Counted from the stretch's first letter, positions 1 through 20,210 are shown. The stretch is DNA of 35,591 nt from Alphaproteobacteria bacterium (GCA_017307335.1 JAFKFJ010000194.1:1-35591), one strand, 5' to 3'. Translations and numbers: made by a program. Notes: a model not told the origin generated them from the letters alone.

Positions 1-2
1 CC

Positions 3-146
3 CCCTTCAACACCTCGGCCGATCGCGCCGCCGCCATGCCAACCTGGCTCTGCGACTACAACAGCCGCAGACCCCACGCCGCCCTCGGCGGAAAGCCTCC
101 GATCAGCCGGCTCAGCAGGAACAACCTCCTTGGTAGCGACAGCTAG
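3..146 (+). pseudogene. C-terminal end of IS481-family transposase (cut by window edge)
   Basis: The open frame runs in from the left edge and ends at TAG 144-146. It encodes about 47 residues, including YNSRRPHAALGGKPPISRL and then NNLLG. This is the usual C-terminal tail of IS481-family DDE transposases (the Y-N-x-x-R-P-H-x-x-L-G-G-x-P-P signature just after the catalytic Glu region). The catalytic core lies outside the window, so it cannot be said whether the element is complete. It lies about 170 bp upstream of hsdR and marks the left side of the accessory island. Identity of the family is fairly sure; intactness is unknown. Confidence 0.75.
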
Positions 147-318
147 AGCGGGGCGAGATCGATGTCTCCTCTCTTGATGTTCCGGAACCTGTGCGCGCCG
201 CGATAGAAGCCAGTCCAGCTCTGCAGTGGAAGGCGCAGAACGTCAAAGCCTGGAAATCGGGCGACAAATCGCTGGCGCCGAGGGCGCGACGAGCAGGGCG
301 GTCACGCGGGGAGGCCAC
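147..318. other. Spacer between transposase tail and hsdR
   Basis: This stretch of 172 bp contains no supported gene. It must hold the promoter of the hsd operon, but I see no convincing -35/-10 pair. A Shine-Dalgarno-like GGGGAGG lies at 308-314, four bases before the GTG at 319, and decides the hsdR start. The upstream extension of the frame back to 226 has no similarity to HsdR N-termini. Confidence 0.5.
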
Positions 319-2688: not shown

Positions 2689-2701
2689 GGAAGATCCGCC
2701 A

Positions 2702-4258
2702 ATGCCCCGTGAGAAGAAGATCAATACGCCGAAAACAACGGCGCAGCGGCTCGACAGCCTCATCAAGTCCGCGCGCAATAAAATGCGCAAGGACCGGGAG
2801 CTGAAGACGGACCTCACGCGGCTGCCCACGCTTACCTGGCTGATGTTCCTCAAATTCGTCGACGATATGGAGCGGGTCCACGAGGATGAGGCGGTGCTCG
2901 CCGACGCGCCGTACCAGCTGCTGATCGATGCGCCTTATCGTTGGCGGGACTGGGCGGCCGATCCGGCGGGCATCACCGGGCCGGACCTGCTGTCGTTCAT
3001 CAATAGCGAGCAGTCCGTTCGCGCGGACGGCACCCAGGGCCCGGGGCTGTTCACCTACCTGCGCGGTCTGCGCGGCAACGGCGCCGGGCGCCAGCGTCGC
3101 GATGTGGTCTCTGCGGTGTTTCGCGATCTGCGGAATTACGCGACCAGCGGCTATGTCCTGCGCGACGTCATCAACCTGATCAACGGTATCCATTTCGACA
3201 GTACCGAGGACATTCAGACCCTCGGCCGGATGTACGAGACGATGTTGCGTGAGATGCGCGATGCCGCAGGGCAAAACGGGGAGTTCTATACGCCGCGCCC
3301 GGTCGTACGGCTCATGGTCGAGATGATCGACCCAAAGCTCGGCGAAGTCGTGCTCGATCCCGCCTGCGGCACGGGCGGCTTCCTGGCTGCTGCCTTCGAC
3401 CATATGAAGCCGCAAGCCGGCACGGTCGAGACGCGCGAGATCCTCCAGCGCAAGACTTTGCGGGGCGGCGAGGATTCCTCGCTTCCCTTCCTGCTCGCGC
3501 AGATGAACCTGCTGTTGCACGGGATCGAGGCGCCCGACATCGAGTTCGGCAACGCCCTGCGCTTCAAGCTGACCGAGATCGGCGAGCGCGACCGGGTCGA
3601 AGTCATCCTGACCAATCCGCCATTTGGCGGCGAGGAAGAAGCCGGCATCCTCACGAATTTTCCGGATGATCGGCGAACCGCCGAAACCGCGCTTCTGTTC
3701 CTGCAGCTCATCATGCGGCGGCTCAAACGCGGCGGTCTCGGGCGCGCCGGCGTCGTCGTGCCGCACGGCATTCTTTTCGGCGACGGCATTGCGGCGCGGA
3801 TCAAGGCCGACCTTCTCGAACAGTTCAATGTTCACACCATCGTCCGGCTGCCAGACGGCACCTTCGCGCCCTACACGGACATCCCCACCAACATCCTCTT
3901 GTTCGACACGTCCGGTCCGACGCGCGACATCTGGTATTGGGAGCAACCGCTTCCGGAGGGCCGGCGGAAATATTCCAAGACGCTCCCGCTGCAGTACGAG
4001 GAATTCGCCGATTGCAGGGCCTGGTGGTCTGATCGGAAGGAAGGACCGCAGGCCTGGAAGGTGTTCGGTCCCGATTTGATCAGGCGCGATGAACAGGGGC
4101 GCGCGGTCGCGGTTGATTTGGATCTGAGAAATCCGCACGCGAAGGCAGTTGTCGATCATCGCATGCCGGCGGAGATCGTCGATAGCGCCATCGCCAAAGA
4201 GCAGCAGGTGCTGGCCGTCTTGAACGAGATCAAGGCGCTTGTGGCGGAGCGCGCCTAG
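2702..4258 (+). CDS. hsdM: Type I DNA adenine methyltransferase subunit HsdM
   Basis: This is the N6-adenine methyltransferase subunit that, with HsdS, methylates the host's own sites and forms the core of the restriction complex. The 518-residue protein begins at ATG 2702, preceded by GGGAAG (2688-2693) at good spacing. An N-terminal helical HsdM_N domain covers about residues 10-160. The SAM-binding motif I is DPACGTGGFL beginning at D219, and the catalytic motif IV is N305-P-P-F. The length is normal for the family. The gene lies 13 bp after hsdR and 3 bp before hsdS, so the three are co-transcribed and probably translationally coupled. Confidence 0.97.
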   Translation: MPREKKINTPKTTAQRLDSLIKSARNKMRKDRELKTDLTRLPTLTWLMFLKFVDDMERVHEDEAVLADAPYQLLIDAPYRWRDWAADPAGITGPDLLSFINSEQSVRADGTQGPGLFTYLRGLRGNGAGRQRRDVVSAVFRDLRNYATSGYVLRDVINLINGIHFDSTEDIQTLGRMYETMLREMRDAAGQNGEFYTPRPVVRLMVEMIDPKLGEVVLDPACGTGGFLAAAFDHMKPQAGTVETREILQRKTLRGGEDSSLPFLLAQMNLLLHGIEAPDIEFGNALRFKLTEIGERDRVEVILTNPPFGGEEEAGILTNFPDDRRTAETALLFLQLIMRRLKRGGLGRAGVVVPHGILFGDGIAARIKADLLEQFNVHTIVRLPDGTFAPYTDIPTNILLFDTSGPTRDIWYWEQPLPEGRRKYSKTLPLQYEEFADCRAWWSDRKEGPQAWKVFGPDLIRRDEQGRAVAVDLDLRNPHAKAVVDHRMPAEIVDSAIAKEQQVLAVLNEIKALVAERA

Positions 4259-4261
4259 GTC

Positions 4262-5404
4262 ATGGCGAGCTTTCCGCTTGTCCCGCTGGGTGAGCTCCTC
4301 ACCTACGCGCCGGATCCGCAGGGCGTGGATCCCGACGGCGCGTATCCGATCGCGGGCATCTATGGCTTTGGTCGCGGGATGATTCAGCGTGCGCCGGTCG
4401 ATGGACGGGAGATAGCCGCCACGCAACTGTTCCGCATCCGGGCGGGCCAGTTCATTTATAGCCGCCTGAAGTCGTTCGAAGGCGCTTATGCGATCGTCTC
4501 GCCCGAGGTCGACGGGTATTTTGTCTCGAACGAATTCCCGACCTTCGATCTGGATTGTGAACGACTCGAGCCCGGATTCCTCGGCTGGTACTTCAAGCAG
4601 GACCGCGTTTGGCAGCAACTAGCCTCTGACGGGAAGGGAATCGGCGCGCGCCGAGAGCGGCTGCATCCCAGACGTCTTCTCGATCATGCCATTCCGTTTC
4701 CTCCGATCGCACAGCAACGTCGGATCATCGCAAAGCTCGACGGCGCGGCGTTGCAACTGAAGTCGATGCGTCGGGCCGCCGATACCGCGCGCGCGGAACT
4801 CGAAGCAACAATGGAGGCGGCGTTTCGGAAGGTGATCGCAGGCGCACCGCGCGTCGCGATGAGCGACATTGCGCCGCTCGTGCGGCGGCCGATCGCGGTC
4901 GATCCGGACGGAAGCTACCCGGAACTTGGCGTGCGCTCGTTCGGCAAGGGAACATTCCGGAAGCCATCACTCTCAGGCCTTGAGGTCGGCAACAAACGCC
5001 TTTTCGCGATTCACGAGGGCGATCTCCTCTTCAATATCGTCTTTGCCTGGGAGGGAGCGGTCGCGCTGGCGAGCGCCGCCGATCATGGCCGGGTCGGATC
5101 CCACAGGTTCCTGACCTGCGTTCCCGACCCTGGGCGGGCGACGCCCCAATTCCTTCTCTATTATTTTCTCACGCCGGAGGGGACGGAGCGTCTCGGCGCT
5201 GCCTCTCCGGGGGGTGCGGGCCGCAACCGCACGCTCGGGCTCAAGGCTTTGGAGTCGATCGCTGTGCCGGCGCCTTCCCTGGACGCGCAATGCTGGTTTG
5301 ATGAACTCCAGCAGAAGGCCGTCGGCGTGCGAGTTGGTCAGTCAGATGTCGCGGGGGAACTGGCTCGTCTGATTCCGGCTCTGCTGCATCAGGCATTCCG
5401 TTGA
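4262..5404 (+). CDS. hsdS: Type I specificity subunit HsdS
   Basis: This subunit reads the bipartite target sequence for the HsdM/HsdR complex. The 380-residue protein has the usual two-half layout. Target recognition domain 1 covers about residues 1-145. A conserved helical spacer follows, with PPIAQQRRIIAKLD (about 145-195). Target recognition domain 2 covers about 200-340, and a second conserved helix pair (SLDAQCWFDELQ...) closes the protein. The second spacer has W-F in place of the more common R-I, a mild divergence. It begins 3 bp after hsdM. The target sequence cannot be predicted from this alone. Confidence 0.95.
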   Translation: MASFPLVPLGELLTYAPDPQGVDPDGAYPIAGIYGFGRGMIQRAPVDGREIAATQLFRIRAGQFIYSRLKSFEGAYAIVSPEVDGYFVSNEFPTFDLDCERLEPGFLGWYFKQDRVWQQLASDGKGIGARRERLHPRRLLDHAIPFPPIAQQRRIIAKLDGAALQLKSMRRAADTARAELEATMEAAFRKVIAGAPRVAMSDIAPLVRRPIAVDPDGSYPELGVRSFGKGTFRKPSLSGLEVGNKRLFAIHEGDLLFNIVFAWEGAVALASAADHGRVGSHRFLTCVPDPGRATPQFLLYYFLTPEGTERLGAASPGGAGRNRTLGLKALESIAVPAPSLDAQCWFDELQQKAVGVRVGQSDVAGELARLIPALLHQAFR

Positions 5405-5515
5405 ACGCCCGACGCTCGTGTTCGTGAAGCCAGGGGAGGACTGTCCTCACAATCCATAATGGTGAGCCGCTTTTGCGAGAACGAGGATCGGCTTGTGTTC
5501 GCCTTGCCAGCTTTG

Positions 5516-6049
5516 TCAGCCGAGCTGGCCGTGCCGTTCGAGCAACCGCATCAGGACGCTGTTGGCGCGGGTGAAATTCTCGCGCTGGTCGCGAAGTCCG
5601 TAGGCCCATTTGGCGCCATGGAAGAGGTTGTTGCGCAAGCGCCAGACGATCATCAGCAGTGCGAGCATTCGGTCGCGAGGATCTTGGTTGGCGCCCTCGA
5701 TCACAGCCTGGAGGAGTTCGGGGTGATCCGACGGCCGAAGCGCAAGAAATGGAAAATGGTGGGTCAGCGCGCCATCGGCGAAATAGCGGTTCTGAAAGTA
5801 GGCGAGTTCCGCATCTTAGAGTTCAGCCTCGAGCATTCCTGCCTCCGCCCAAGCGTCCACCTTTTGGCGGATACGATCGGCGCGGGCGAAATTGCCCATG
5901 ACTTGCGCCTCGAAGAGGCTCCAGAGGAAGGCGAAGTCGAAGATGGCGCGGCGGTCCGCATCGGGAAGATCCCTGAAGCCAGGCGCGCGCGCCTCGAGCC
6001 ACTGCTCGCTCACGCCGCGCTCCGTTTTCTCATCGTCAGAGACCGCCAT
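5516..6049 (-). pseudogene. HEPN-like protein interrupted by an in-frame TAA
   Basis: Read through, this is a 177-codon gene whose frame is continuous except for one TAA at 5818-5816 (minus strand). The 5' part (6049-5819, 77 residues) begins MAVSDDEKTERGVSEQWLEA and ends MLEAEL. After the stop the same frame goes on with DAELAYFQNRYFADGALTHH and ends RLLERHGQLG. The 3' part contains RNNLFHG, an R-x4-H pattern typical of HEPN-fold RNases and related small helical proteins. The start lies 3 bp after the stop of the GIY-YIG gene, so it is the last member of the minus-strand operon. A single substitution (for example GAA to TAA) would explain the break. Function of the family is unknown to me; HEPN is inferred from one motif and helical character. 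Confidence 0.6.
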
Positions 6050-6052
6050 GGC

Positions 6053-6556
6053 TCAATAATCCGGTTCTTCGCGGCGGGGATCGAGTTCCGAGAAGTCGGT
6101 CAGTGTGTCGCAGCGGATGCAGTGGTACATTTGCGAGGCGTCCTGGAAATGCATGCCGCAGAGGCAGCCGCAAAAGGGGCAGCATTCGTCGATCTCGAGA
6201 TCGGCCCAATCCCACACGCCGAGATATTCTGGAACAGCATCGCGATCATAGCCGGTGATCTGAAAGGCGTCGGCGTTCTTGGCAACAAATCCATCGCGGC
6301 CGGCGTGCGTGAGAATGGGCAGGACGTCCGCCGGCTCGATGGCGAACCACTCTCCGCGCACATGGGTCGCGCCAAAATGCTGGTGCAGGTGTCGCTCAAG
6401 CTGAAAGGCGTCGGCCGTCTCGATCCACCCGAGCAGCCGCAGTTCGAGAGGGTTGCCGGTCTGGAGGTTGCGCTTGCGCGCTTCGATATTCTTCGCAACC
6501 CCGATCTTGACCGGGGAGCACCCATTTTCATCTTCGCCAAGGAAATAGACCGGCAC
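6053..6556 (-). CDS. GIY-YIG nuclease-superfamily protein (T5orf172/MUG113-like) with C-terminal zinc ribbon
   Basis: The 167-residue protein has two parts. Residues 1-75 look like the T5orf172/MUG113 branch of the GIY-YIG nuclease superfamily: MPVYFLGEDENG leads into VKIGVAKNIEARKRNLQTGN, then ERHLHQHFGATHVRGEWFAI. The usual GIY and YIG are degenerate here (VYF and KIG); the Arg of the RxxxLQ segment and the E-x-x-L-H-x-x-F helix are present. Residues about 120-155 carry CCPFCGC...CIRC, a likely Zn ribbon. Such proteins are found in phages and defence islands, where they probably nick DNA. The gene sits 18 bp after the Lit-like peptidase gene and 3 bp before the broken HEPN gene. Nuclease activity is inference. 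Confidence 0.75.
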   Translation of the reverse strand: MPVYFLGEDENGCSPVKIGVAKNIEARKRNLQTGNPLELRLLGWIETADAFQLERHLHQHFGATHVRGEWFAIEPADVLPILTHAGRDGFVAKNADAFQITGYDRDAVPEYLGVWDWADLEIDECCPFCGCLCGMHFQDASQMYHCIRCDTLTDFSELDPRREEPDY

Positions 6557-6574
6557 GGCGCGCTCCCTGCGGCG

Positions 6575-7498
6575 TTACCGGAGCCGGTCGAGCAGGATTT
6601 CGACCATTTCCTGATTTGAGTTCGCGACGATGTCGAGCGGTCGATTCTCCTGGCGCATGAGCGCGATCAGGAGGCAGGCCGTGAACGGCCAAAAGGACGA
6701 ACCGGCCGGCAGGCTGTAGCCGCTGATCATCGCCGTCAGCCGTTCGGCGATCGGCGGATATTGCCGATTGCCCCATTGCGCGTAGGTCGGCGTCATCGCA
6801 TGGATGATCAGGGCGGCGAGCGCGATGCCCATCGCGCGCTTTTGCTGGACCTGCGCATAGCTGTGGCCATGCGTCGTCGCGTAGGCGGCGAGGCCGCTCG
6901 TCATGAACTCGCGCGCCCAGGTGTCACAGGCGATTTCCTCTTCGGGCAGGGTCGAGGGCGCGCTGTTGTCGGCGCAGAACATGACGTGCCGGAATTCGTG
7001 CAGAAGGGTGAAGGCAAGGGCGAGCGCGACCAGGTCGAAGGTGGCCTTGTGCTGATCGTTACCCAGGCCGTCGCGGTCGGCGGTCGGCTCGGGGACGTCC
7101 GCCGGCCAGGAAATGTCCGCAGTCTGTTCGGCCGCGAGGAGCGACCGGGCGCTGCCCACGCGCTGCTTATAGTCGAATTCGTATTGCCCCCGTTCCGCGT
7201 CGACGCCCAGCGCCTGGCTGAGCGGCATCCCGGTCACGGTCGCGAGCACCAGGGCGGGTGAATAAACCTCGATCGCGCGCCAGGCGCTGAAGCCGAGCAG
7301 CCAGAAGAAGTCGATCGTCTTGGTGTCGAACCTGATGCGGCTGGCGTCCGCATTCATCGTGACGCCCTTGCTGCTGGGGGCGACTTCGACGGCGTGGCCG
7401 TATCGGGTCCAGAAACCGCTGATCTCGTCGGCGCGCTCGGGGACGGCCCCGCGCAGGAGGTGAAGGACGATCGCGCGGTCGGCTGGCCCGGTCGTCAT
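6575..7498 (-). CDS. Lit-like zinc peptidase (peptidase U49 type, HExxH)
   Basis: This is a 307-residue protein with a zinc peptidase motif, H167-E-F-R-H171, on a hydrophobic helix (LALAFTLLHEFRHVMF). It is followed by PEEEIACDTWAREFM, whose acidic residues could give the third metal ligand. Size, motif position and the downstream E-E-x-x-C/A-D pattern resemble the phage-exclusion protease Lit (about 300 residues). Lit of E. coli cleaves elongation factor Tu during T4 infection and aborts growth. ATG 7498 is chosen because AGGGGA stands about ten bases upstream; the frame is open to 7528. The gene lies 49 bp after the preceding member of the minus-strand operon. The Lit assignment rests on motif and layout, so substrate and phage trigger are unknown. 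Other HExxH families remain possible. Confidence 0.7.
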   Translation of the reverse strand: MTTGPADRAIVLHLLRGAVPERADEISGFWTRYGHAVEVAPSSKGVTMNADASRIRFDTKTIDFFWLLGFSAWRAIEVYSPALVLATVTGMPLSQALGVDAERGQYEFDYKQRVGSARSLLAAEQTADISWPADVPEPTADRDGLGNDQHKATFDLVALALAFTLLHEFRHVMFCADNSAPSTLPEEEIACDTWAREFMTSGLAAYATTHGHSYAQVQQKRAMGIALAALIIHAMTPTYAQWGNRQYPPIAERLTAMISGYSLPAGSSFWPFTACLLIALMRQENRPLDIVANSNQEMVEILLDRLR

Positions 7499-7547
7499 GC
7501 GTGTCCGGTCCCCTGTGGGTCGGCGCAAGGCATGGCGGGCGAGCTAG

Positions 7548-8960
7548 TCATCGCGGTTCGTCCTGGCTCGACGTGTTCACGGCTTTCTCGGGCTCACCGG
7601 ACAGGCGCAGATGCGTGATCGACGCCAGAACCGAGTTCGCCCAGATGGTGCTGCATTCGATCTCGTCGTCCCGCTCGAACCAATGGGTGGCGCCTGGGAT
7701 GAGATCGAAGGGAATGGGGTGGGCCGCCTGCGGATTGTGGAAGACCTCCAGCTCCTGGCACCAGGCTTCCCCCCACGGCCAGAGGGATTGGTATTCCTCG
7801 CTACCGACCGACAGCTCGAAGTCGATTGGCTCGAGCGCGCCCGGTGTCCGATCGAACAGAATTCCGCGCCGGATCATTTCGAGACCGGGCGGCCGCCAGC
7901 CGGCGAGGAAGCCCATGCGGTTGAATTTGGCCAAGGTGCCGGCATTGCTGAAGATGACCGCGGACAGATGCGCAAAGTCGGGATCGCGGAACAGGCCGGC
8001 CGGAATGCCATGTTTGCCGGTGAGGTTGGCGATCGACGTGCCGATCGCGCGGCGATGCGCGCCTTCGCCTTCGACATCGGCGCGCAGGCCATACAGATAG
8101 GAGGGAAGCGCCTCACGGCTCCAGACCATCGAGCCGGATGCGTGGAAGTCCGCGATGGCGATGGCGAAGGATCGGCCCCTGACGTGGTCCATCTCGTGAT
8201 AGTTGCGCTGGAGCTTGCCGCGCAGCGTCTTGGCGAAACGCTCGGCGGGCGCGCCGGTCAGCCGCTCGGTGCGGTCCTGCGGCGCGTGCACCCAGTCGCC
8301 GATCCCGCCCGCGCGCGGGGTTTCGGAATTGGCGGTGACCGCCTCGATCCAGCAGTCGAGGCCGTCCTTCTCGATCCGGAAGTCGGGCGATACGTGGTCC
8401 TGGCGGACGATCAGGCCCTGCTCGCGGAAGCAGGCGAGCAGATAGAGCTCGAAGAGCCGCGAGGCGAAGTTGCTGGTCTGAAGATCACTGACGAAATTGG
8501 CGTCCGGATTGGGAAGCGCGAGATAGCATTCGCCCACCGCCATGAGCGCGGGCAGATGGCTCGCCGTGCTGGCAAGAAGCTCGAACTCGGGCGAGATGCC
8601 GCGCGCGCCTGGCTGCATCAGGGGCGGACGGCGCCGCGCGCCGCGCGGAAGCGGTTCAGGCGGATCGCTGCCGCGCATGCTGATGCTGAGATGGTCGAGC
8701 GCTGTCTCGGGGGTAGAGAACGGGCCGCCTTCGTCGACACGCACCCAGAGATGATCGACGCGCCGGCGCATGGCCAAGGTGGTGAACGCCCCGCGCTCGG
8801 GATCGAGGAGGATGCAGCCGCAGGCGCTGCCGCGGCCGACCCTGTAGACGCCGAAAATGTGCGACGGGTCGAAGTTCGGTCCGCGCTCCAGCGACAGCGC
8901 ATAGAGCTCGAACTGCCGTTCGCTGATCGGCGTGATCAGTTGCGGGTCATCGACGGCCAT
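7548..8960 (-). CDS. Uncharacterised protein with PD-(D/E)XK-like core
   Basis: I do not recognise a named family for this 470-residue protein. A central segment has the layout of a PD-(D/E)XK fold. A helix RLFELYLLACFREQGLIV carries the early Glu. Then comes PDF with D193, and 13 residues later W-I-E206-A-V. The lysine expected two residues after the Glu is absent (Val), so catalysis is doubtful or uses a moved Lys. The same pattern occurs in the next gene (D91, E104), which suggests common descent. The C-terminus carries FHNPQAAHPIPFDLIPGATH and HWFERDDEIECST. ATG 8960 follows GAGG seven bases upstream; the longer upstream frame overlaps the neighbouring gene and looks non-coding. It is third in the minus-strand operon. 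Confidence 0.6.
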   Translation of the reverse strand: MAVDDPQLITPISERQFELYALSLERGPNFDPSHIFGVYRVGRGSACGCILLDPERGAFTTLAMRRRVDHLWVRVDEGGPFSTPETALDHLSISMRGSDPPEPLPRGARRRPPLMQPGARGISPEFELLASTASHLPALMAVGECYLALPNPDANFVSDLQTSNFASRLFELYLLACFREQGLIVRQDHVSPDFRIEKDGLDCWIEAVTANSETPRAGGIGDWVHAPQDRTERLTGAPAERFAKTLRGKLQRNYHEMDHVRGRSFAIAIADFHASGSMVWSREALPSYLYGLRADVEGEGAHRRAIGTSIANLTGKHGIPAGLFRDPDFAHLSAVIFSNAGTLAKFNRMGFLAGWRPPGLEMIRRGILFDRTPGALEPIDFELSVGSEEYQSLWPWGEAWCQELEVFHNPQAAHPIPFDLIPGATHWFERDDEIECSTIWANSVLASITHLRLSGEPEKAVNTSSQDEPR

Positions 8961-9027
8961 CGTCACGCCTCGCGGCGTGGAGGGCGAAAGGCCGGCGGCT
9001 CCGACCCGTGCTGGACAAGCAGCGTCC

Positions 9028-9954
9028 TCATCGCGCCTCCGCCACGGCCGCCGGGGCGAGGATGTCGTTGCTCTCCCATCCGTGGCCGTGCGCGGTGGTG
9101 ACGAACTCGCAATCCCAGATTCCCCAGTTCGTCGGCAGGGGAACCTGCGCGAGCGGGTTATGGACATAGGTGATCGGCCGGATCTGGCGCGACAAGTTGC
9201 CGAGCCCGACGCGCGACCAGATGACCCCTGAGATGTCGGCGAAGCGCTCGTCGAGAAACGCCGTGCGCGGGATGGGATTGCGTTCGCGGTCGATGAGCGG
9301 AGCCGCGTGGAACCCTTCCTCGACGACGTCCCCGGTCGCGCGATCGATGGTGATATAGGCATCGCCGATCGGGAAGAGGGTGGTCATGATCAGCGGCAGG
9401 GGCCGCTCGGCGACATAGACCCCGAACCGGCTTGCGCTGATGGCGACGATCCGCGTGTCCTCGGGCGCGATCACGCCCTGTTGGATATAGCGGGCGATCT
9501 TTTGGGCCTTGGTCCAGAAGGCGCCTGAGGTCCGCAACTGCGCCTGGCGGATCGGTGCGGCGGCGAGTCCGCCGCCCTCGTTGATAGGGATGGGCCGCAC
9601 GATCTGGTCGGGACCCGGCGCGCCTTCGTCGGGTGCGATGGCTTCGATCCAGATGCGACGACCCTGTTCGAGGACGCAAAGGTCAGGCTGGCCGCCCTGG
9701 CGCTGGCGGTCGATGACGGGCAACAACATGCGACCGGCCTCGAGCAAGGCGCAGCCGAGATACATCTCCCAGAAACGGCCCTCGACGTCGCGGGCGAAGC
9801 CCTGCGGAAAATCAGGGTCGGCATAGGGCTCATAAATTGCCCACATCGCCTCGATCCGATCGTGAAGCTGCCGTTCGAAGGGCGATTCCGCAGCCTTCAG
9901 ATTCTCGAAGCCGCGATCGAGATTGGGGCCGTCGACGTCGAAAAGACGGGTCAT
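9028..9954 (-). CDS. Uncharacterised PD-(D/E)XK-like protein, distant relative of the neighbour
   Basis: This 308-residue hypothetical protein is of the type often seen near restriction genes. About residues 60-110 give the signature R-F-W-E-M-Y-L-x-C-A-L-L-E-A-G, then QPDL with D91, then R-I-W-I-E104-A-I-A-P after 13 residues. This matches the core of a PD-(D/E)XK fold, with Ile where Lys is expected. The C-terminal part (EFVTTAHGHGW and nearby) has no motif I know. It starts at ATG 9954, 13 bp after the stop of the first gene of the operon, and ends 67 bp before the 470-residue relative. A nuclease or nuclease-derived sensing role is inference. Confidence 0.6.
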   Translation of the reverse strand: MTRLFDVDGPNLDRGFENLKAAESPFERQLHDRIEAMWAIYEPYADPDFPQGFARDVEGRFWEMYLGCALLEAGRMLLPVIDRQRQGGQPDLCVLEQGRRIWIEAIAPDEGAPGPDQIVRPIPINEGGGLAAAPIRQAQLRTSGAFWTKAQKIARYIQQGVIAPEDTRIVAISASRFGVYVAERPLPLIMTTLFPIGDAYITIDRATGDVVEEGFHAAPLIDRERNPIPRTAFLDERFADISGVIWSRVGLGNLSRQIRPITYVHNPLAQVPLPTNWGIWDCEFVTTAHGHGWESNDILAPAAVAEAR

Positions 9955-9967
9955 CGTCCTGTCTCTG

Positions 9968-10522
9968 TCAGGCGCTGCGCAGCATCCGCTCGATCCGGAC
10001 GCGGTGATAGCCGTGGGCGTGCACCTGCTGCCGGAGCTGTCGGATGTCGCTGACCCCGAAGGCCACGGCCGCCTTCAGCGGGCTGGCGAAGGTCGCGTAG
10101 TAGGTCCAGCGCGCACCAGCGGGCAGGGCTGCGTTCTGGCGGCGGTCGGTGATGACGACATCGCGCGGATCGCGGCTGTTCCGGAAGGCGTGGAACGTGA
10201 TCCAGTCCGGCCGCCGATAGCGCGTGGCCTTGCTGAAGGGCACCGACTGCACCTTCACGTCGCTCTGGTCGAGCACCCAGTCGCGCTGCTCCAAGATCTG
10301 GCGCACCATGTGGCCGACCATCTGCTTGACGCGGTCGGCCAGCACGTTCTCACGGAATTCCGCCAGGAGCTGCTCCTCGATGCCCTCGACCGCGGGCTTG
10401 CCCAGCTCCGAGGCGGTCTCCAGGCGGGCGACGCTTTCGGGCCGGATAAGAAAGGCCCAGATGCGCTGACCGAGATCGGACGCGTAGAGCGATGCGAACT
10501 TTTCGGGGCTGTAGGTCAACAT
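9968..10522 (-). CDS. Uncharacterised 184-residue protein, first gene of the minus-strand operon
   Basis: I do not recognise this protein. It begins MLTYSPEKFASLYASDLGQR at ATG 10522, with a near-perfect ribosome site AAAGGAGG eight bases upstream; the frame is open to 10678 but that start would cross the divergent gene. The N-terminal half is helical with EEQLLAEFRENVLADRVKQM. The C-terminal half contains DWITFHAFRNSRDPRDVVIT, and ends basic (YHRVRIERMLRSA). No membrane segment or signal peptide is visible. As leader of a six-gene operon it could be a structural or sensing partner of the nuclease-like proteins that follow; this is inference only. Confidence 0.65.
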   Translation of the reverse strand: MLTYSPEKFASLYASDLGQRIWAFLIRPESVARLETASELGKPAVEGIEEQLLAEFRENVLADRVKQMVGHMVRQILEQRDWVLDQSDVKVQSVPFSKATRYRRPDWITFHAFRNSRDPRDVVITDRRQNAALPAGARWTYYATFASPLKAAVAFGVSDIRQLRQQVHAHGYHRVRIERMLRSA

Positions 10523-10534
10523 GAGCGGCCCTCC

Positions 10535-10573
10535 TTTACCGGGCAAATATGGCCGGTTATAAGTGCCTGTCAA
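10535..10573. promoter_or_regulatory. Overlapping divergent promoter candidates
   Basis: On the plus strand TTTACC (10535-10540), 17 bases, then TATAAG (10558-10563) fits a sigma-70 promoter for the nuclease/TIR/HEPN operon. On the minus strand TTGACA (complement of 10568-10573) stands 16-18 bases from AT-rich CATATTTG (about 10551-10544), fitting a promoter for the six-gene operon. The two overlap, so the divergent operons could be co-regulated from one site. Assigned by eye. Confidence 0.45.
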
Positions 10574-10598
10574 TGCCGGTGCACGATTGGGCGCTCCG

Positions 10599-11258
10599 AT
10601 GCCGGAATGGGGGAGGCTGGACTTGGACTTCGAGGATCTCGTCACCGCGCTAGCGCCGCCGCCGAACCGCGCAGGCAAATCCGATGGCGGCCATGAGCAC
10701 CATCTCTACGAAGGCGCCGTGATGGTCGCTTACGCCATGCATCTTCTGCGCACGGCGAATGCGCAGCATGTGCGCATCCATCCCGACGGCGAGCATGGCA
10801 AGCAATTCGATTTTGCGGGCTGGCTACAGCGTCGGGAATTCACCAAGGTCTCCAGCCTCGGCAGCACGGCCTATGGCGGCGTCTATCGGAACGCCGCGGG
10901 CCAAACGATAACCGTCCACCCCAAGTCCGGCCTTGGTGATGTCGTGGCGGAAATCGGCGACCGCATCATTTCGGCGGAGTGCAAGGGCGGCATCATCAAC
11001 ACGCGGCATCCGGGGCAGGTGTCCCGACTCTACAAGGGGCTGTGCGAGACGGTCGGGTTGCTGATGGCGACGCCGTCGCCGGGCCGACAGGTTGCGGTCG
11101 TGCCTCTGACCGAGGGCACTTTGCGCCTGGCCGAGCGGCTCGCGCCGCGCTGCACGCTGGCCGGTATCGAGATCGCGCTTGTCGGCAGCCGCGGCGAGGT
11201 CATGGACGTCAAGCCGTCGCTGGGGAGCGAACGGGGCCGGGAGGGGAACGACAGATGA
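10599..11258 (+). CDS. PD-(D/E)XK nuclease-like protein, first gene of TIR-HEPN operon
   Basis: The protein (219 residues from ATG 10599) has a plausible restriction-type core: D114 (GLGDVVAEIGD), then 13 residues later E127-C-K129 in SAECKGGII, which gives the D...ExK triad intact. The helix after it (HPGQVSRLYKGLCETVGLLM) fits the fold. Start choice is open. A GTG at 10563 lies inside the candidate -10 box and is unlikely. ATG 10599 has a weak ribosome site. TTG 10623 has a strong GGGGGAGG (10609-10616) six bases upstream. The stop overlaps the ATG of the TIR gene (ATGA, 11255-11258), so translation is coupled. I infer a DNA- or RNA-cleaving or nuclease-derived sensing role. Confidence 0.7.
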   Translation: MPEWGRLDLDFEDLVTALAPPPNRAGKSDGGHEHHLYEGAVMVAYAMHLLRTANAQHVRIHPDGEHGKQFDFAGWLQRREFTKVSSLGSTAYGGVYRNAAGQTITVHPKSGLGDVVAEIGDRIISAECKGGIINTRHPGQVSRLYKGLCETVGLLMATPSPGRQVAVVPLTEGTLRLAERLAPRCTLAGIEIALVGSRGEVMDVKPSLGSERGREGNDR

Positions 11259-12367
11259 GAAGAGTACTGACGGTCGGCGTGACCTATGCCGGCGATGCGA
11301 TCGAAGGAGTGGAGATCGACAATCTCGGTCTGTGCCGACCCGAAGTGGATCGCGAGCGAGCCGCCTATCCACTCTACGAATATGACACGATCATCATCAA
11401 TCCCGAGAGCTACTCGCATTTCCTGTTCGGCAAGGCCGGCGAGTTCTCGAACGAGCTCTACGAGCTTGGCAAGCTGAAGGGGCAAAAAGACCGGTACGAT
11501 ATCGATTCCGCGTTCGACGCCGAGGATCGGCGGAAGGAAATGGAGGCGGCGATCGCGGACGGCGCCACCGTCATTTGGTGCCTCTCCGAGCCGAAGCGGG
11601 TGAACTTCTACGGCTATCGCGAAACCCATCTTGGCTATGTGGCGCCGAAGGTGGCGAGCTTCGTCAAACGCTCGGAGCTGCTCGTGAAAAAGGGACGCAG
11701 GATGGGGCCCGTCGACCCGGACAGTCCGTTCGCGCGCTATTTCGACGTGCTGTCACAGACCGGCGGCTGGACGCTTTGCCTGTCGGATCCCGGCGACGGC
11801 TATGCATCTGTCGCCGCGACGCCGGAGGGCTATAGCCTGGGCGGACGGGTGACGCTCGGGACGACAACGGGGTGGCTGCTGACGCCGCCGACGTCGCAGG
11901 AAGCGCAAAACCAGCTCGTGCGCGACAGCCTGGCGCTGGAAAAGGCCGACCCCGCGCACGAGAAGTATCACGGCATCTTCCTGAGCCACACCGGCGTCGA
12001 TAAGCCGTTCGTGCGCCAGCTGCGCAAGGATCTCCTCGCCCACGGCGTGCCGCGCGTCTGGCTGGACGAAGCCGAGATCGATATCGGCGACTCGCTGATC
12101 GCCAAGATCGACGAGGGCATGAAGCTCAGCCGCTACATCGCCGTCGTCCTGTCGAAGAAATCTATCGACGCCCTTTGGGTGAAGAAGGAGCTCGACGTCG
12201 CAATGAACCGGGAGATCGCCAGCGGCGAGGTGGTGGTGTTGCCGTTGCTCTATGAGGAGTGCGAGCTGCCTGGCTTCCTGAAAGGCAAGCTCTACGCCGA
12301 TTTCTCCAAGCCCGAAGACTATGAAACTGTGCTGGGCAAGCTCTTGCGGCGGCTTCGGATCGCCTAA
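11255..12367 (+). CDS. TIR-domain protein with an unrecognised N-terminal domain
   Basis: The 370-residue protein has two parts. Residues 1-230 contain YDTIIINPESYSHFLFGKA and VIWCLSEPKRVNFYGYRETH; I know no family for this, and it may be the sensing part. Residues from Y238 form a TIR domain: YHGIFLSHTGVDK (box 1), VWLDEAEIDIGDSL (box 2 region), SRYIAVVLSKKS, and W308-V-K-K-E312-L. E312 is at the position of the catalytic Glu in NAD-cleaving TIRs. Bacterial TIR proteins commonly deplete NAD or make cyclic ADP-ribose signals upon phage infection. The start overlaps the preceding nuclease-like gene by ATGA, and the stop overlaps the next start by TAATG. TIR identity is firm; NADase activity is inferred from the Glu. 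Confidence 0.88.
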   Translation: MRRVLTVGVTYAGDAIEGVEIDNLGLCRPEVDRERAAYPLYEYDTIIINPESYSHFLFGKAGEFSNELYELGKLKGQKDRYDIDSAFDAEDRRKEMEAAIADGATVIWCLSEPKRVNFYGYRETHLGYVAPKVASFVKRSELLVKKGRRMGPVDPDSPFARYFDVLSQTGGWTLCLSDPGDGYASVAATPEGYSLGGRVTLGTTTGWLLTPPTSQEAQNQLVRDSLALEKADPAHEKYHGIFLSHTGVDKPFVRQLRKDLLAHGVPRVWLDEAEIDIGDSLIAKIDEGMKLSRYIAVVLSKKSIDALWVKKELDVAMNREIASGEVVVLPLLYEECELPGFLKGKLYADFSKPEDYETVLGKLLRRLRIA

Positions 12368-13701
12368 TGCGCGAAGCTTCGACCGGTCCGAGCGCGGCCA
12401 TGCTCACGGCGCTGACGGACTTATGGCGACTGCGCCCCCCGGGGCCCGACAATATCCTCGTGCATCCCGCGTTCGAGCGGCTGCGCGAGGCTTGCCGTGA
12501 AGGCTACCCGAACGCTGGCAAAAAAGGTCCGGCATTTGCGCTCTCGACGGCGCTGAGGGCTTTAGGCCTGCCGTGTCACCTGCAGAAGGACACGGCCCAT
12601 CTCGCGTTGCCGGTGGAGGAGGCGGCCAAGGATCTCGATGCGGGGCTGCGCGCCACCCAAGCCAAGCGCATCCATCTCGCGCCGCTTGATTTGGCCGCCG
12701 ACCTGCCGCCGCTTGCGTTCGGTTCGGCGGAGATGCGCCGGCTGACGGCGGACGAGCTGCGCGTCTTGGTCGATGTGCCCCGGCTGAAGCGACACTATCA
12801 GCGTCAGGATTTCGACGCGGAGCGCTTCTCGGAATTCCACTGGCTGATAGTCGAAGAAATCGTGCCGCTCGACCAGGAGCCTGAAGCCCGGGCGGTCCCG
12901 GTGCTGTTCATGGACCTGAGCCAGGACCTCGGGCGGATCGAACCCCACAAGGGCCGCTTTCCCGTTGCGTTAGAGGAAGCGCTGTTCTTTCTCCTGCTGG
13001 CGCCGTGGGAGCGCTGGTCGACGATGGCGGAAGTCGACTGGCGCGGCTTCCGCGTGCCGTGGGTCTACACCGTCGACAGCGACATTATCGTCCGTCCCAA
13101 CCCGCCACCGTCGCCCGACACGTTGAGCTGGGAGGACCGGATCTACGACGACGGTTATGGCGGGACCTATGAGGAGGAGCGACCGGTCGAACTGCGGCTG
13201 GAGGATGCCGCCGCAACCGAATTGCCCGTCTGGGACCAGAGCCGATGGATGATCGTGGAGCAGGCAAAGAAGTCGGTCCTGTTCGAGACGCCTATCGCGC
13301 ACTTTCTGGTCCGTGCGTTTCTAGCCGAAGGCGTGGACGAGTTCCTCGCGCACATCACCACGATCGAAGCTGCCTTGGGGCTACGCGCGGATCATCAGAA
13401 GAGTTTCCGCGTCGCGCCGGATCGCCACAAGGGGATGCGCGCCACGAACAGGATGCGAGGGCGCGTCGCGGGGCTTCTCGGCGATCGCCGCTACGCCGAC
13501 CAATATGAGCGGCTGTTCAACGTGCGAAGCGCTTTCCTGCATGGCCGCGCCATGACGGATATATCGACAGAGGAACGCGTGATGGCCCGATCGTTGGCTC
13601 GTGAGGTCGTGGAAGCGCTGATCCTCGCCACGCAGACTCCGACCCCATCCCGCGAGGAGTTCCTCGATGGCCTCCTCGATAAAGGCGCCCCGCTGCTCTA
13701 G
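12367..13701 (+). CDS. HEPN-like protein (R-x4-H), third gene of TIR operon
   Basis: A 444-residue protein. The last 120 residues are helical and contain R387-S-A-F-L-H392-G-R in FNVRSAFLHGRAM, the R-x4-H motif of HEPN-fold proteins, in a setting like the ApeA-type HEPN family (helix EFLAHITTIEAALGLRADHQ before it). The N-terminal 300 residues carry no motif I recognise, though LRALGLPCHLQKDTAHL recalls host-factor-like segments. HEPN proteins of this kind are RNases that cleave tRNA or other RNA in abortive defence. The ATG shares one base with the stop of the TIR gene, so the two are made together. RNase function is inferred from the motif and operon. Confidence 0.7.
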   Translation: MREASTGPSAAMLTALTDLWRLRPPGPDNILVHPAFERLREACREGYPNAGKKGPAFALSTALRALGLPCHLQKDTAHLALPVEEAAKDLDAGLRATQAKRIHLAPLDLAADLPPLAFGSAEMRRLTADELRVLVDVPRLKRHYQRQDFDAERFSEFHWLIVEEIVPLDQEPEARAVPVLFMDLSQDLGRIEPHKGRFPVALEEALFFLLLAPWERWSTMAEVDWRGFRVPWVYTVDSDIIVRPNPPPSPDTLSWEDRIYDDGYGGTYEEERPVELRLEDAAATELPVWDQSRWMIVEQAKKSVLFETPIAHFLVRAFLAEGVDEFLAHITTIEAALGLRADHQKSFRVAPDRHKGMRATNRMRGRVAGLLGDRRYADQYERLFNVRSAFLHGRAMTDISTEERVMARSLAREVVEALILATQTPTPSREEFLDGLLDKGAPLL

Positions 13702-13839
13702 CGCGGGTAAGCCCCTATAGCGGGCCTTCAGCGAGCTGGTCGCGGCGGCTTCGCGGCTTCCTGACTTGCGCGCAGCGTGGGGAGGGACCGCGCACGATGG
13801 CGCCTGCCGCCACCTTCCGGCCGAGGCTCGCCGCGAGAG

Positions 13840-13856
13840 GAGGAGCGTCGCTCCTC
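13840..13856. terminator. Small hairpin between convergent operons
   Basis: GAGGAG, five bases, CTCCTC forms a short perfect hairpin in the 153-bp gap between the stop at 13701 and the stop at 13855. It overlaps the last codon of the minus-strand nuclease gene. There is no T-run on either side, so it is at best a weak bidirectional terminator. The rest of the gap holds nothing I can identify. Confidence 0.3.
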
Positions 13857-14559
13857 AGGAAGTTGAGGTGACAGGCGCCGCCGGCACCATATCGACGAAA
13901 ACGTGCTTCAGCCGGATGACGTGGCTGCCATTCTGAACCAACGCGCCGTCTAAAACAGCCAAGGCCAGGGAATGTGCCGCTTCGGCCGTCAGCCCCGCGG
14001 ACTCTCCGTAGGTTTTCCGAATGCGCGCATCGACGGCATCAACCACGGCTGAAGCCGGAAGCGCAAGCACATAACCCAGCATGAAACCCCAATCATGCCC
14101 GGCGGCGTACTGACCAGTAGCAAAGCGCGCGACGCCTTTCGTGACATAACTCGCATTCAGGGTAGGATCACTTGCGTGCACACGCTTACATTCAACAGCG
14201 ACATAGGCGTCCTCATCGCCAAACTGATGCAGGAACTGCAAAGTGATGTCGATCCGACCTAGGATGGTCGGATCGTCGTTCGCCATATCTTCAAGCTCAT
14301 GCTCACCACGAAGTTGAAGGTTCGTCAGCCCGAGCGATTTCTTGACTCGGCGCATTGCCTTTCGGACCATGATCGTGGTCGGCACTTCGAGCATGCCGGG
14401 GACAACGTGTGGTCTAGCTTCGTCGCAGCCTCTGCAAAGAAGATCGAGGACGGTGGCGATCTGATCGCCCGACAGGGCGAAAGCGGGAAGCCCGAATGGA
14501 ACGTCAGGCGTGAGCAACGGCGTTCCCTCTCCGCAGCCAATGGTCTGCGAGGATGACAT
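13855..14559 (-). CDS. PD-(D/E)XK nuclease partner of the adjacent methyltransferase
   Basis: A 234-residue protein with a complete-looking PD-(D/E)XK core: D104 in GRIDITLQF, and E123-C-K125-R in AYVAVECKRVHAS, followed by a helix with ASYVTKGVARFATG. It is probably the restriction or repair-type endonuclease that works with the methyltransferase upstream. The ATG at 14559 would overlap the methyltransferase gene by 56 bp and has a poor ribosome site. A TTG at 14517 (codon 15) is preceded by GGAGAGGG at good spacing and overlaps by only 14 bp, so it may be the true start. Target and mode of action cannot be read from the sequence. Confidence 0.75.
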   Translation of the reverse strand: MSSSQTIGCGEGTPLLTPDVPFGLPAFALSGDQIATVLDLLCRGCDEARPHVVPGMLEVPTTIMVRKAMRRVKKSLGLTNLQLRGEHELEDMANDDPTILGRIDITLQFLHQFGDEDAYVAVECKRVHASDPTLNASYVTKGVARFATGQYAAGHDWGFMLGYVLALPASAVVDAVDARIRKTYGESAGLTAEAAHSLALAVLDGALVQNGSHVIRLKHVFVDMVPAAPVTSTS

Positions 14560-17500
14560 CGGCGTCGTTCAAGCCCGCAGTACGGGTCCAGTTTCGGATT
14601 TCGCTGGGCTTCAGAATGAAAAGGTCATCTGATCCATAAAGCCTGATCTGCCGCCGTTCGTTGAGGTAGGGCGGTATCGGGGCATCGAATTGCCCCCGCA
14701 AAAGCGCCCCCAAAGCGTCAAGTTCGGCTGGGTCGCCGTCTCGGATGATCGATTTCTTACCAGGGCCGCCCTGCGCCATAACGAACCGAACGGCGGTAAT
14801 GCCGGCAACGCCAGAAGCCAGATCCGCTTTGGTCAGCCGCGTCGGATAAATGACAGCTTCAAGGTGACGCTCGTTGCGAGCGCGAAGGTAGGTGTCGACC
14901 GTTTGCACGACCTGGCCGGCATAGGCTCGCAAAGCCGCTGCATCTGGTGGTGTGATAAGACCGGCGCGTTCGCTTCGATTCTCAAAAACAAGGTAGCGCG
15001 CGCGTTCGACGCTGTCGCGGGCGAGAGTTCGCTCGTCCCGGTCCAAGTCGTACACATCGAAAACCGCTTCATCGAGCGCCTTGAGACTGGCGGAGTTCGA
15101 TGGATCGGCCGCCGCCGCCTCTTCGGCTTCGATCAGCGCTGTGAACAAGGCGGGATCGATCCTGGTCAGATCGGGAATGCGCAGCGACAGGAGATCATGA
15201 GGCTCCACCGTCGGGCGCTCGAGGCCCCAGGTGGGCCCGCCAAGTGCAAACTGAAAGGCTGTGAGGCAGGAGTTCAATATTCCGCTGAGCGCGTAGGCGT
15301 ATTTGACGTCCGCGCCGGCGAAGGACACGCCATAGAAGTTTTGGGTGTAGAGCACGTCGCGCGGACTGACGGCCGCGCTGTAGCGTCCACGCTCGGCGCC
15401 CGAGGCATTGCCCACCTTGGAACAGAGCAAGATTGGCCCGCGGAAAATCGACTCGCGCCGGGGCCGATGTAGCGTTTTGTGCGTGAAGTCATCGAGCGAT
15501 GCGTAATCGAGGCGGAACGCCGAGAACTTCTCAGGTGTGACGACCTTAAGGCGCCGATAACCGGCGGGAGGCGTGTTTGCGTCGCCGCGGACCTGGAAAC
15601 CTTGGCCTCGGTTGGCAGACGGGTCACGTTCCAGCGTCTGCAGCAGCATGTCAAAACGTGGAAAATCCTTTTCAAGCCGCTCGATTAGCCAACCGTCACG
15701 AACCGTTCCGAACGTCGCCGCTTTGAGAAACGGCGGGGTCGCCAGTACGCGTTTGAGCGGGACGGAACGGATTTCCCCCGGGCCGAGACCGAACACGCCC
15801 GTGCGTCGGAAATCCGGTGACCACGGAATGGAGCCGACGAGCATGCGGTCGGCTTGCGGACCAAGACCGCAACGAGCGAAAAAAAGCAGCGCCGGACCGA
15901 GTGCATCAGGGAAGAGATCTTCCCGGCGAAGATAGGAGAGATTGATCAAAGCGACAGGTGCGAGGCGCTCCAAGAGGTGGTTTCGCGCCGCGACAGCGTG
16001 AACATCTTTGGAAAAGAAGGGCGTCGCTTTCATAACCATGCCGACGCGGCCGTGTTCTCCGGCAAGCTCCGCACCGAGCGACAGAAATGCTTGGTCCGGG
16101 CTCCGCCTGGGACGCAGCGTTGATGTGTCGGAAGTGCGCCGCCTTTCGGTGCCGCCTTCTTTCCTGACGAACGTCCATGGGGGATTGCCGACCACCGCGT
16201 CGAACGCTCGGCTAGTGATCGCTGCGGGCAAATTGTCGCCGAGCGAGTCCGCTTCGAACAGCGTGGTGTCGATCAAGCGATCGAATTTCAGATCACGGAT
16301 GTCGCTGATCGGCTGCTCGTCGAGTTCCAGAGCGGCGAGATATAGGCTGAACGCAGCGATACCGAGCGCCGCGCGATTGATATCGACGCCAAAAAGCTGG
16401 CCATAGAGGATACGCCGGACGAGTTCTCGGCTGGCGGGTTTCCCTTCCGCCGCGCGCCAGACCAGCCGGCGAAACGCTTCCACGAGGAAGGCTCCCGACC
16501 CACATGCTGGGTCGATAACCGCCCCATGGGACGGCAGACCCTCGAAAACGGGATCGAGTGTAAGATGGACGAGCTCAACGGGCGTGTAATGAAGACCCTG
16601 CGATCGCGCCTCGTCCGCGGCGCTCGTTCGCGCGAATTGTTGATAGATCGAGCTGATGAGATCGACCGGAATGGCGTTGAAGCGGAAGCGAAAAAGGCGT
16701 CCCTGTCCAAGGCGCTCAGGGATCAGGCTGCGCCCCTCCACGAAATCGCGGATCAGCTCCAGATGCTGAGGTGTTAATTGTTCACGCTCGGCCCCGGGGT
16801 CGTCCATCGGGAACAGGTCGCCGTTGAAGGTCGTCCGCAGCCAGTCGAACAAGGCAAATGCGCTCGAGGGCGTTGCGAACATCGCACTGAGATCTGCGGG
16901 CATGTCCGCCGGCAAGAAAGGCTGGGCAATTCCCCGATCCAGCAGATACCAGGTGAAGATGCAGCGCCCGACAAACCGCTGCGCGATGTCGCGCGCGTGA
17001 ACCAAGGCGCGCTCGGTTTGCGGACCGCCGAGCGCCGTCAGGCGGTCCTCCAGCGCAGAGATCTCAGCTAGCAGCTCCCGGTCAACGCGATGCCGCCGAT
17101 TGATCCGGGACCCGATTGGACTGGTCCAAAACGCGCCCGTCTCGGTGGCGATGCGACCACATTGAGCGTCCAGCACGCGAAGGCGCTCGCCGGACTGGAG
17201 AACGAAACGGTCCAGGGCCTGCGGCGCCTGCGCTGCTTGTTCGTCAGTTGGCTCGGGTGAGGCATAGCAGTCGTAAAGGCGGATATCCGTAGGCGTGATA
17301 ATCCACAGCAGCGGCGCGACCCCGACGTTCCACGCCGCTTCATGCCACCGACGAAGATCCTCATCGGAAGGTTCGGCTCCGCCTGCGTCCTTGAAGATGC
17401 TGGTAGGGGCATTCTGCGCCGTGAAGACGGCATCCGCCTGCAGTCCGACTCGCTCGTCCGAAAACACGGCGCGCATCTTGGCCGCGCGAGGATCGCCTGC

Positions 17501-17584
17501 CGGCACCAACCCCGGTGCTGGAAGGCCGTTGGAGGCGAGATAGCCGGTCGCCTCCAGCGCCTGTTTGTAGGCAGCGCTGGTCAA
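14504..17584 (-). CDS. Large N6-adenine-type DNA methyltransferase (Eco57I/TaqI-like class)
   Basis: A 1026-residue protein. Residues about 1-330 are an N-terminal domain with LQADAVFTAQ and ITPTDIRLYD, which recalls the N-terminal region of Eco57I-like enzymes but shows no clear D...ExK. The methyltransferase core starts with HYTPVELV, then D358-P-A-C-G-S-G-A-F-L (motif I) and N467-P-P-W (motif IV). This is the gamma-class layout with a long C-terminal target recognition part (LLCSKVGN, ALSGILNS, and similar TaqI-like pieces up to about residue 850). It begins with an ATGA overlap on the stop of the HTH gene and ends overlapping a nuclease gene. I infer a modification-restriction pair with cleavage supplied by the partner, not by this protein. 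Confidence 0.88.
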   Translation of the reverse strand: MTSAAYKQALEATGYLASNGLPAPGLVPAGDPRAAKMRAVFSDERVGLQADAVFTAQNAPTSIFKDAGGAEPSDEDLRRWHEAAWNVGVAPLLWIITPTDIRLYDCYASPEPTDEQAAQAPQALDRFVLQSGERLRVLDAQCGRIATETGAFWTSPIGSRINRRHRVDRELLAEISALEDRLTALGGPQTERALVHARDIAQRFVGRCIFTWYLLDRGIAQPFLPADMPADLSAMFATPSSAFALFDWLRTTFNGDLFPMDDPGAEREQLTPQHLELIRDFVEGRSLIPERLGQGRLFRFRFNAIPVDLISSIYQQFARTSAADEARSQGLHYTPVELVHLTLDPVFEGLPSHGAVIDPACGSGAFLVEAFRRLVWRAAEGKPASRELVRRILYGQLFGVDINRAALGIAAFSLYLAALELDEQPISDIRDLKFDRLIDTTLFEADSLGDNLPAAITSRAFDAVVGNPPWTFVRKEGGTERRRTSDTSTLRPRRSPDQAFLSLGAELAGEHGRVGMVMKATPFFSKDVHAVAARNHLLERLAPVALINLSYLRREDLFPDALGPALLFFARCGLGPQADRMLVGSIPWSPDFRRTGVFGLGPGEIRSVPLKRVLATPPFLKAATFGTVRDGWLIERLEKDFPRFDMLLQTLERDPSANRGQGFQVRGDANTPPAGYRRLKVVTPEKFSAFRLDYASLDDFTHKTLHRPRRESIFRGPILLCSKVGNASGAERGRYSAAVSPRDVLYTQNFYGVSFAGADVKYAYALSGILNSCLTAFQFALGGPTWGLERPTVEPHDLLSLRIPDLTRIDPALFTALIEAEEAAAADPSNSASLKALDEAVFDVYDLDRDERTLARDSVERARYLVFENRSERAGLITPPDAAALRAYAGQVVQTVDTYLRARNERHLEAVIYPTRLTKADLASGVAGITAVRFVMAQGGPGKKSIIRDGDPAELDALGALLRGQFDAPIPPYLNERRQIRLYGSDDLFILKPSEIRNWTRTAGLNDADVILADHWLRRGNAVAHA

Positions 17585-19508: not shown

Positions 19509-20210
19509 GGCCTGGTCGCAAGCGCAAGCTCGTTGATGCGATGCGGCGTGAATGGGATGTCTCGATCCGGCGTGCCCGCCGGGTGTTGGAGATCGACACG
19601 TCGACCTACCACTATCGCTCGCGTCGACCCGATCAGGCCGAGCTCGAGAAGCGGATCCGGGAGATCGCCGAGACCCGGGTGCGCTACGGCTATCGGCGTG
19701 TGCATGTTCTGTTGCGTCGGGAGGGCTGGCGGGTGAATGCCAAGCGGTCTACCGGCTGTATCGGGAACAGGGTCTGCAACTGCGCAACAAGGTGCCGAAA
19801 CGGCGCGTGAAGGCGAAGCTGCGTGAGGATCGGCAGCTCGCCTTGCGGCCGAACGACGTCTGGGCGATGGACTTTCTGCACGACCAGCTGGCGACCGGAC
19901 GGAAGATCCGGGTCGACCAGGGCTCGGAGTTTGTCTCACGGGACCTGGACCTGTGGGCGTATGCACGCGGCGTGACACTGGACTTCTCGCGGCCGGGCAA
20001 GCCGACGGACAATGCGGTCGCGGAAGCCTTCAACAGCCGCATCCGAGCGGAGTGCCTGAACGCCCACTGGTTCCTGACGCTTGCGGACGCACGCGAAAAA
20101 CTGGAGGCTTGGCGCAGATACTACAACGAGGAACGCCCGCACGGGCGATCGGCAACAAGCTGCCGGTTTCGCTGCAGAATCCCGGTGACGCAGCCAGTCC
20201 GTCACCGTGA
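19494..20210 (+). pseudogene. IS3-family transposase OrfB, broken
   Basis: The reading frame begins as KNLRPGRKRKLVDAMRREWD in the -1 frame of orfA. A base is missing near 19745-19748 (AAGCGG-TCTAC where AAGCGGGTCTAC is expected), moving to the frame that reads VYRLYREQGLQLRNK. Near 19906-19916 about 40 codons between WAMDF and VDQGSEF are gone, fused at an ATCCGGGT repeat. A second base is missing near 20143-20146 before AIGNKLPVSL. The DDE residues (WAMD, VDQG, AEAFN) remain, but their spacing is collapsed. It is certainly inactive. Confidence 0.85.

Follow-up and report, generated by a model that had tools for sequence, protein, structure and literature searches.

Descriptions of anti-phage defence islands usually present them as loose clusters. 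Among described systems and regulators, PD-T7-1 is a single-gene system that came from a functional selection in Escherichia coli, where its protection was reported to be stronger against T-even phages than against T7 (PMC9519451), and the repressors BrxR (PMC9122601) and RptR (PMC12255303) are placed before diverse defence systems. Here we analyse a 35,591-nucleotide stretch of DNA from an alphaproteobacterium (JAFKFJ010000194.1:1-35591, referred to in its entirety as the window), in which nine genes at positions 5516-13701 diverge from one region of ~100 bp, six on the minus strand (A, C, D, E, F and G) and three on the plus strand (H, I and J). This block is very probably a composite defence cassette; that it is a mobile anti-phage cassette, whose two operons can separate, share a promoter hub and encode effectors that act independently, is probable, and we strongly favour independence of the two arms. 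Neither PADLOC nor NCBIfam has a system that spans the whole gene set, and no published description of the combination was found in the open-licence literature. The original prediction that no system of this composition has been published stands for the set as a whole, with the amendment that E belongs to the PD-T7-1 family and D is close to Lit.

The gene positions, strand assignments and short gaps predicted at the outset were all confirmed: gaps between minus-strand genes are 3-67 nt, and the plus-strand reading frames overlap, H with I by 4 nt and I with J by 1 nt. Scanning an alignment of J against ~85,000 species genomes yielded 76 loci, mostly from alphaproteobacteria; because the search was pattern-based and sampled a single genome for each species, counts of loci are not frequencies, and gene calls in the related loci are mechanical, several of these loci being contigs of metagenome-assembled genomes (MAGs). 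As the original prediction had proposed to check, the gene set recurs in distant genomes, those of unrelated bacteria of soil and water, in the same order. The arrangement C-D-E-F-G|H-I-J (the bar marks the divergence) is found in the same orientation in five further non-identical loci from Sphingomonadales and Hyphomicrobiales, with 78-95% protein identity (L020, Sphingomonas; L021, Novosphingobium; L026, Bradyrhizobium/Afipia; L035, Aureimonas; L038, a Hyphomicrobiales MAG), and a second Novosphingobium locus (L076) has all of C-J except I. L026 and its identical copies were counted as a single observation, given 100% identity over 17.3 kb. Homology detected by blastn stops at the stop codon of J (13702) on one side and at that of A (5516) or within the 3'-terminal part of C (~6075) on the other, and ratios of nonsynonymous to synonymous substitution rates (dN/dS) are 0.07-0.17 for each gene from C to J (0.08-0.14 for C). 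Downstream of J, most sister loci carry AbiEi/AbiEii and Gabija or other genes for defence, with DUF932/ParB genes at the opposite end; such flanks are expected of mobile-element cargo. Relatives of J are also carried by conjugative plasmids, for example the Ti plasmid NC_002377, which encodes I and J.

We note that the L026 group shares a 17,326-bp stretch (1-17326) that is 100% identical in L026, L027, L028, L034 and L051, labelled Bradyrhizobium or Afipia, and 99.9% identical in a Sphingorhabdus MAG. Either the whole island was transferred very recently or the identity stems from contamination.

The two arms meet at divergent, conserved promoters (10530-10573, both strands) that overlap, as had been predicted. 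The plus-strand promoter consists of TTTACC (10535-10540), N17 and TATAAG (10558-10563), and the minus-strand promoter of TTGACA (10573-10568), N16 and CATATT (10551-10546); a dyad, ACCGG-N10-CCGGT (10538-10557), lies inside the overlap of both. At G|H loci the intergenic core reads CTCCTTTACCGGGCAAATATGGCCGGTTATAA-N6-TGTCAA, and this 29-bp core is nearly invariant between loci with coding-DNA identities of 77-92%. A search for the core in 249 genomes of the family and 385 of the class, allowing 2-3 mismatches, located it in 7 genomes, one copy in each (6 from the family sample, the window's own included, and 1 more from the class sample), beside G wherever the neighbourhood was read; the reversed control pattern had zero occurrences across the ~630 genomes. 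Given a single copy per genome, a genome-wide operator regulon was rejected. G is present without a strict core match in 3 of 9 family genomes, and a diverged version of the core is visible in L106 and L107. In a promoter scan the minus-strand promoter alone passed the threshold, with a mean of 0.0 for shuffled sequences. The dyad is likely to be a shared operator that sets both arms.

Gene G (9968-10522, minus strand; 184 residues) opens the minus-strand operon as its constant element and, being next to each strict operator that was inspected, is the natural candidate for the operator protein, although we propose such binding only tentatively. G has no Pfam match, and hence no WYL or helix-turn-helix (HTH) match, so it does not qualify as a member of the BrxR/CapW group (WYL plus winged HTH). 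Its predicted structure is poor (predicted local distance difference test, pLDDT, of 65), shows no recognisable fold and gave no match in Foldseek. Small proteins encoded on plasmids of Acinetobacter, Lelliottia, Photobacterium and Rhizobium share the N-terminal ~105 residues of G. This part constitutes a small unnamed family of gammaproteobacterial and rhizobial plasmids (L108, L109, L110 and L111), with TerY/PP2C genes, Shedu/AbiGi-like genes or an ATPase-helicase pair as neighbours in those loci. It is conceivable, if doubtful, that G and the invariant divergent promoter form an exchange platform, a hub of regulator and operator with no relation to regulators already known, which would keep whatever defence genes are attached to it under one control, and, as part of the same conjecture, that the conserved ~0.7-1.3 kb provides homology for swapping arms between mobile elements. 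Viral contigs contained no relative of J or of G, and a viral origin was rejected on that basis.

The conservation of order and promoter bears on whether the block is a plain defence island, in which unrelated defence genes gathered at a mobile-element hotspot and the sharing of a promoter and the pairing of genes mean nothing. The surroundings are indeed those of classic islands, with restriction-modification (RM), AbiE and Gabija genes, neighbours that differ in every locus and flanks typical of integrative and conjugative elements (ICEs; DUF932 and ParB). Random accretion, however, leaves the same eight genes, their order and their end points unexplained, and the 29-bp core is near unchanged while the adjoining arms are swapped; we regard a plain island as unlikely.

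Both the arms and their individual genes occur apart. In L123, from another family, type I RM genes, an intact A, C-G and the promoter are retained (87-92% identical DNA), and H-I-J are gone beyond the first ~15 codons of H. I and J are found without the rest on the Ti plasmid and in L036, H-J pairs in L005 and L006, and H-I-J without a G relative in L033; H lacks a G relative in L005, L006 and L032 as well. The locus fetched from Pseudomonas veronii contains I but no relative of J, J is present without other cassette genes elsewhere (for example, L025, L057 and L080), and E and F each recur outside the cassette, with relatives of E in 102 plasmid records. In L011, L044, L048, L049 and L104 the genes of the arms are replaced by others or assigned to the opposite strand, with G-X-J-E or G-HNH on one side and H-TrlF on the other. 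In L102, L105, L106, L107 and L124, G diverges from an AAA_15 ATPase/UvrD-type pair or from AbiE, and there is no H. Overall, the variable arms comprise TIR-HEPN, TrlF, Gabija-type or AbiE genes on one side and F-E-D-C-A, HNH or X-J-E on the other. Lone broken genes are found in otherwise intact cassettes, namely A in the window and, as apparent frameshifts, D of L026, F of L022 and J of L038. Judged by alignment, the genes of the L020 and L021 cassettes are unbroken.

These separations also weigh on the idea of one integrated multi-gene defence system with a single sensing-and-killing pathway, of which gene-poor loci would be decayed remnants or subtypes. Such a system would fit the retention of C-D-E-F-G|H-I-J across several families, purifying selection on all eight genes, the common promoter, the overlapping frames of H, I and J and the partly congruent divergence between genes. 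We nonetheless consider it quite improbable: L123 has A-G without H-I-J, the Ti plasmid has I-J only, I lacks a J relative in the P. veronii locus, J stands alone in many loci, E and F recur elsewhere and genes break one at a time. Because genes decay independently, the plus-strand arm is missing from L123 and J, I, E and F are found apart from the rest, the block does not behave as one obligate machine. The original prediction had left open whether the operons form a composite system or are two neighbours; what moves together as a cassette is two operons and several independent units around a shared promoter, and the arms are separable. Least probable of all, and very unlikely, is that G|H is a toxin-antitoxin or regulator-nuclease addiction pair stabilizing the element with the rest as cargo, for although the operator lies between the two genes in most promoter loci and H carries a PD-(D/E)XK core, G and the operator occur without H in L102 and L105 and H occurs without a G relative in four loci, such that neither needs the other.

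A mobile cassette of two separable operons is thus the reading to which the shared gene order, the ends at the last genes, purifying selection and the occurrence of arms and single genes apart all point. Several observations weigh against it. Six distinct loci keep the order C-G|H-I-J unchanged and the branch distances of some genes correlate (for example, E-F 0.89 and F-J 0.86), both of which would be expected of a single co-acting system too; the correlation, a gene-tree style comparison, is too uneven to tell a single unit from multiple ones and was not relied on by itself. TTTACC is a weak plus-strand -35 element that the promoter scan did not report; the weak model of G and its lack of a known fold leave a DNA-binding role conjecture; and the structural matches of J to HEPN proteins have Z scores of 4.3-6.8, a range that can arise fortuitously.

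The plus-strand arm encodes a putative nuclease, a TIR protein and a HEPN-like protein. H (10623-11258, plus strand) is of PD-(D/E)XK type; a TTG start is favoured by the sequences of its relatives, and the alternative start at 10599 gives the 219-residue numbering, in which D114...E127-C-K129 has D114, E127 and K129 invariant among relatives, suggesting a PD-(D/E)XK nuclease core. I (11255-12367, plus strand) combines an N-terminal domain of ~228 residues without family and a TIR domain (Pfam TIR_2, 1.1e-26, 94.2 bits versus a cut-off of 28), with the glutamate of a conserved WVKKEL motif identical across 15 sequences. PADLOC matches of I to ThsB and PDC-S66 are confined to the TIR part, and assignment to Thoeris was rejected, since ThsB_TIR scored 16.1 bits versus a cut-off of 21.2 and no SIR2 ThsA was present among the cassette and RM genes scanned. 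J (12367-13701, plus strand; 444 residues) has no Pfam, NCBIfam or PADLOC family match. It has the HEPN motif Rx4-6H as R387-x4-H392, invariant in 53 sequences, and its predicted structure is of high confidence (pLDDT 92.7; predicted template modelling score, pTM, 0.89). In structural comparison the best eight rows were HEPN-family proteins, with Z of 6.8-4.3 over residues 301-428, below Z 8, and the VIA-align structural alignment spanned residues 192-430; a C-terminal HEPN-like domain at residues 301-428 is accordingly predicted from the model. By analogy with characterized families, it is somewhat more probable than otherwise that the TIR domain of I is an NADase, and the same modest expectation applies to the HEPN domain of J as an RNase. 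We also note that J directly follows an ATPase and helicase pair, Gabija-like by annotation, in L012, L055, L064 and L066, and that another recurring arrangement places J after a HEPN-like protein, X, and a protein of ~223 residues (L007, 7692-8998, and L041-L047).

The minus-strand products other than G resemble known defence or nuclease proteins to differing degrees. C (6053-6556, minus strand) has a GIY-YIG nuclease domain that exceeds family cut-offs (Pfam MUG113, 8.5e-15, 55.5 bits versus 22.3; T5orf172, 42 versus 20 bits), followed by a Cys-rich, zinc-ribbon-like C-terminal tail. D (6575-7498, minus strand) is a metallopeptidase with the HExxH motif HEFRH and a match to Pfam Peptidase_U49 (33.7 bits versus a cut-off of 23.9). 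It also matches the PADLOC Lit profile (6.1e-15) and, over nearly the full length, NCBIfam Lit (1.5e-55), but at 188.6 bits falls below the equivalog cut-off of 274, and D is for this reason termed Lit-like only. E (7548-8960, minus strand) is a full-length relative of PD-T7-1, matching the PADLOC profile at 4e-84 over positions 2-447 of 452, and F (9028-9954, minus strand) is a remote relative of E and of PD-T7-5 (PADLOC profiles, 3.6e-06 and 2.8e-05). A canonical PD-(D/E)XK assignment was rejected for both, as D...ExK is replaced by PD...W(I/F)E(A/V) (PD...WIEA in F) with the lysine missing; they may yet be degenerate members of that group. A (5516-6049, minus strand) is HEPN-like with an RNNLFH motif and is broken by a single in-frame TAA at 5816-5818, and its relatives are unbroken over the full length in L022, L035 and L123. 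Nothing useful came from PDB sequence profiles, run for G, J and H, or from searching PDB sequences with D. Of the product labels originally predicted, Lit-like, GIY-YIG and TIR were upheld by Pfam scores above cut-offs, the broken HEPN-like A was borne out and HEPN-like J gained tentative fold support from its predicted structure; the PD-(D/E)XK-like label holds for H, with its ExK lysine, and fails for E and F.

The window lies in a defence island, with further genes on both sides of the block. From left to right it carries hsdR-hsdM-hsdS, the nine-gene block and a minus-strand pair, K-L. The type I RM genes (226-5404) lie left of the block, and the same operon adjoins the A-G operon in L123 (1-4319), with the second half of HsdS more variable; type I RM and cassette may travel together. 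K-L (13855-17584, minus strand) is a 234-residue PD-(D/E)XK-like protein with a GRIDIT...ECK motif adjoining a 1026-residue type IIG-like methylase, and probably represents an additional RM system; L003 and L018 likewise have an L relative adjoining J. A transposase/integrase core (rve) gene (19552-20313, plus strand) separates the defence genes from oligopeptide transporter genes and likely marks the island edge.

With product roles taken from their families, the cassette would consist of two defence operons back to back on one regulatory region, which could be separately gained, lost and swapped. The dyad in the promoter overlap would serve as operator, allowing one protein, for which G is the best candidate, to set the level of both arms. 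H and C would cut nucleic acid, E and F would act as PD-T7-type nuclease-fold proteins, and D would cleave a host protein, as Lit does. The N-terminal domain of I would sense infection, upon which its TIR domain would break down nicotinamide adenine dinucleotide (NAD), and J would cleave RNA via its HEPN domain. A fixed promoter module and G recur while TIR, HEPN, Gabija-type, AbiE, TrlF, PD-T7-1 and Lit-like genes attach on either side, which makes both the co-regulation of multi-system islands and their reshuffling testable. J, the N-terminal half of I, G, H and F are uncharacterized candidates with strong conservation and clear partners.

Several parts of the cassette have counterparts among described systems and depart from them. 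E matches PD-T7-1 over the whole profile, but is encoded in a multi-gene operon whereas PD-T7-1 is a single-gene system. D shares HEFRH and the near full-length match with Lit, yet scores below the Lit cut-off and sits in an operon rather than as a lone prophage gene. I has the clear C-terminal TIR_2 domain of TIR effectors and Thoeris ThsB, and differs in its additional 228-residue N-terminal domain, its sub-cut-off ThsB_TIR score and the lack of a SIR2-type ThsA among scanned genes. J resembles HEPN RNases (HEPN/MNT toxins, Csm6 and ApeA-like proteins) in its invariant Rx4H and, less certainly, in its predicted C-terminal fold, but matches no family profile, has a large unmatched N-terminal part and is without an MNT partner gene. 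As with BrxR and RptR, a small conserved gene and a palindromic promoter element lie upstream of varying defence genes; unlike them, G has no WYL or HTH match or recognisable fold, and the promoter is divergent with both arms variable. Finally, the block shares its composition and neighbours (AbiE, Gabija and RM) with the defence islands and hotspots that ICEs and plasmids carry, but is set apart from these by its fixed gene order, fixed ends and one conserved promoter.

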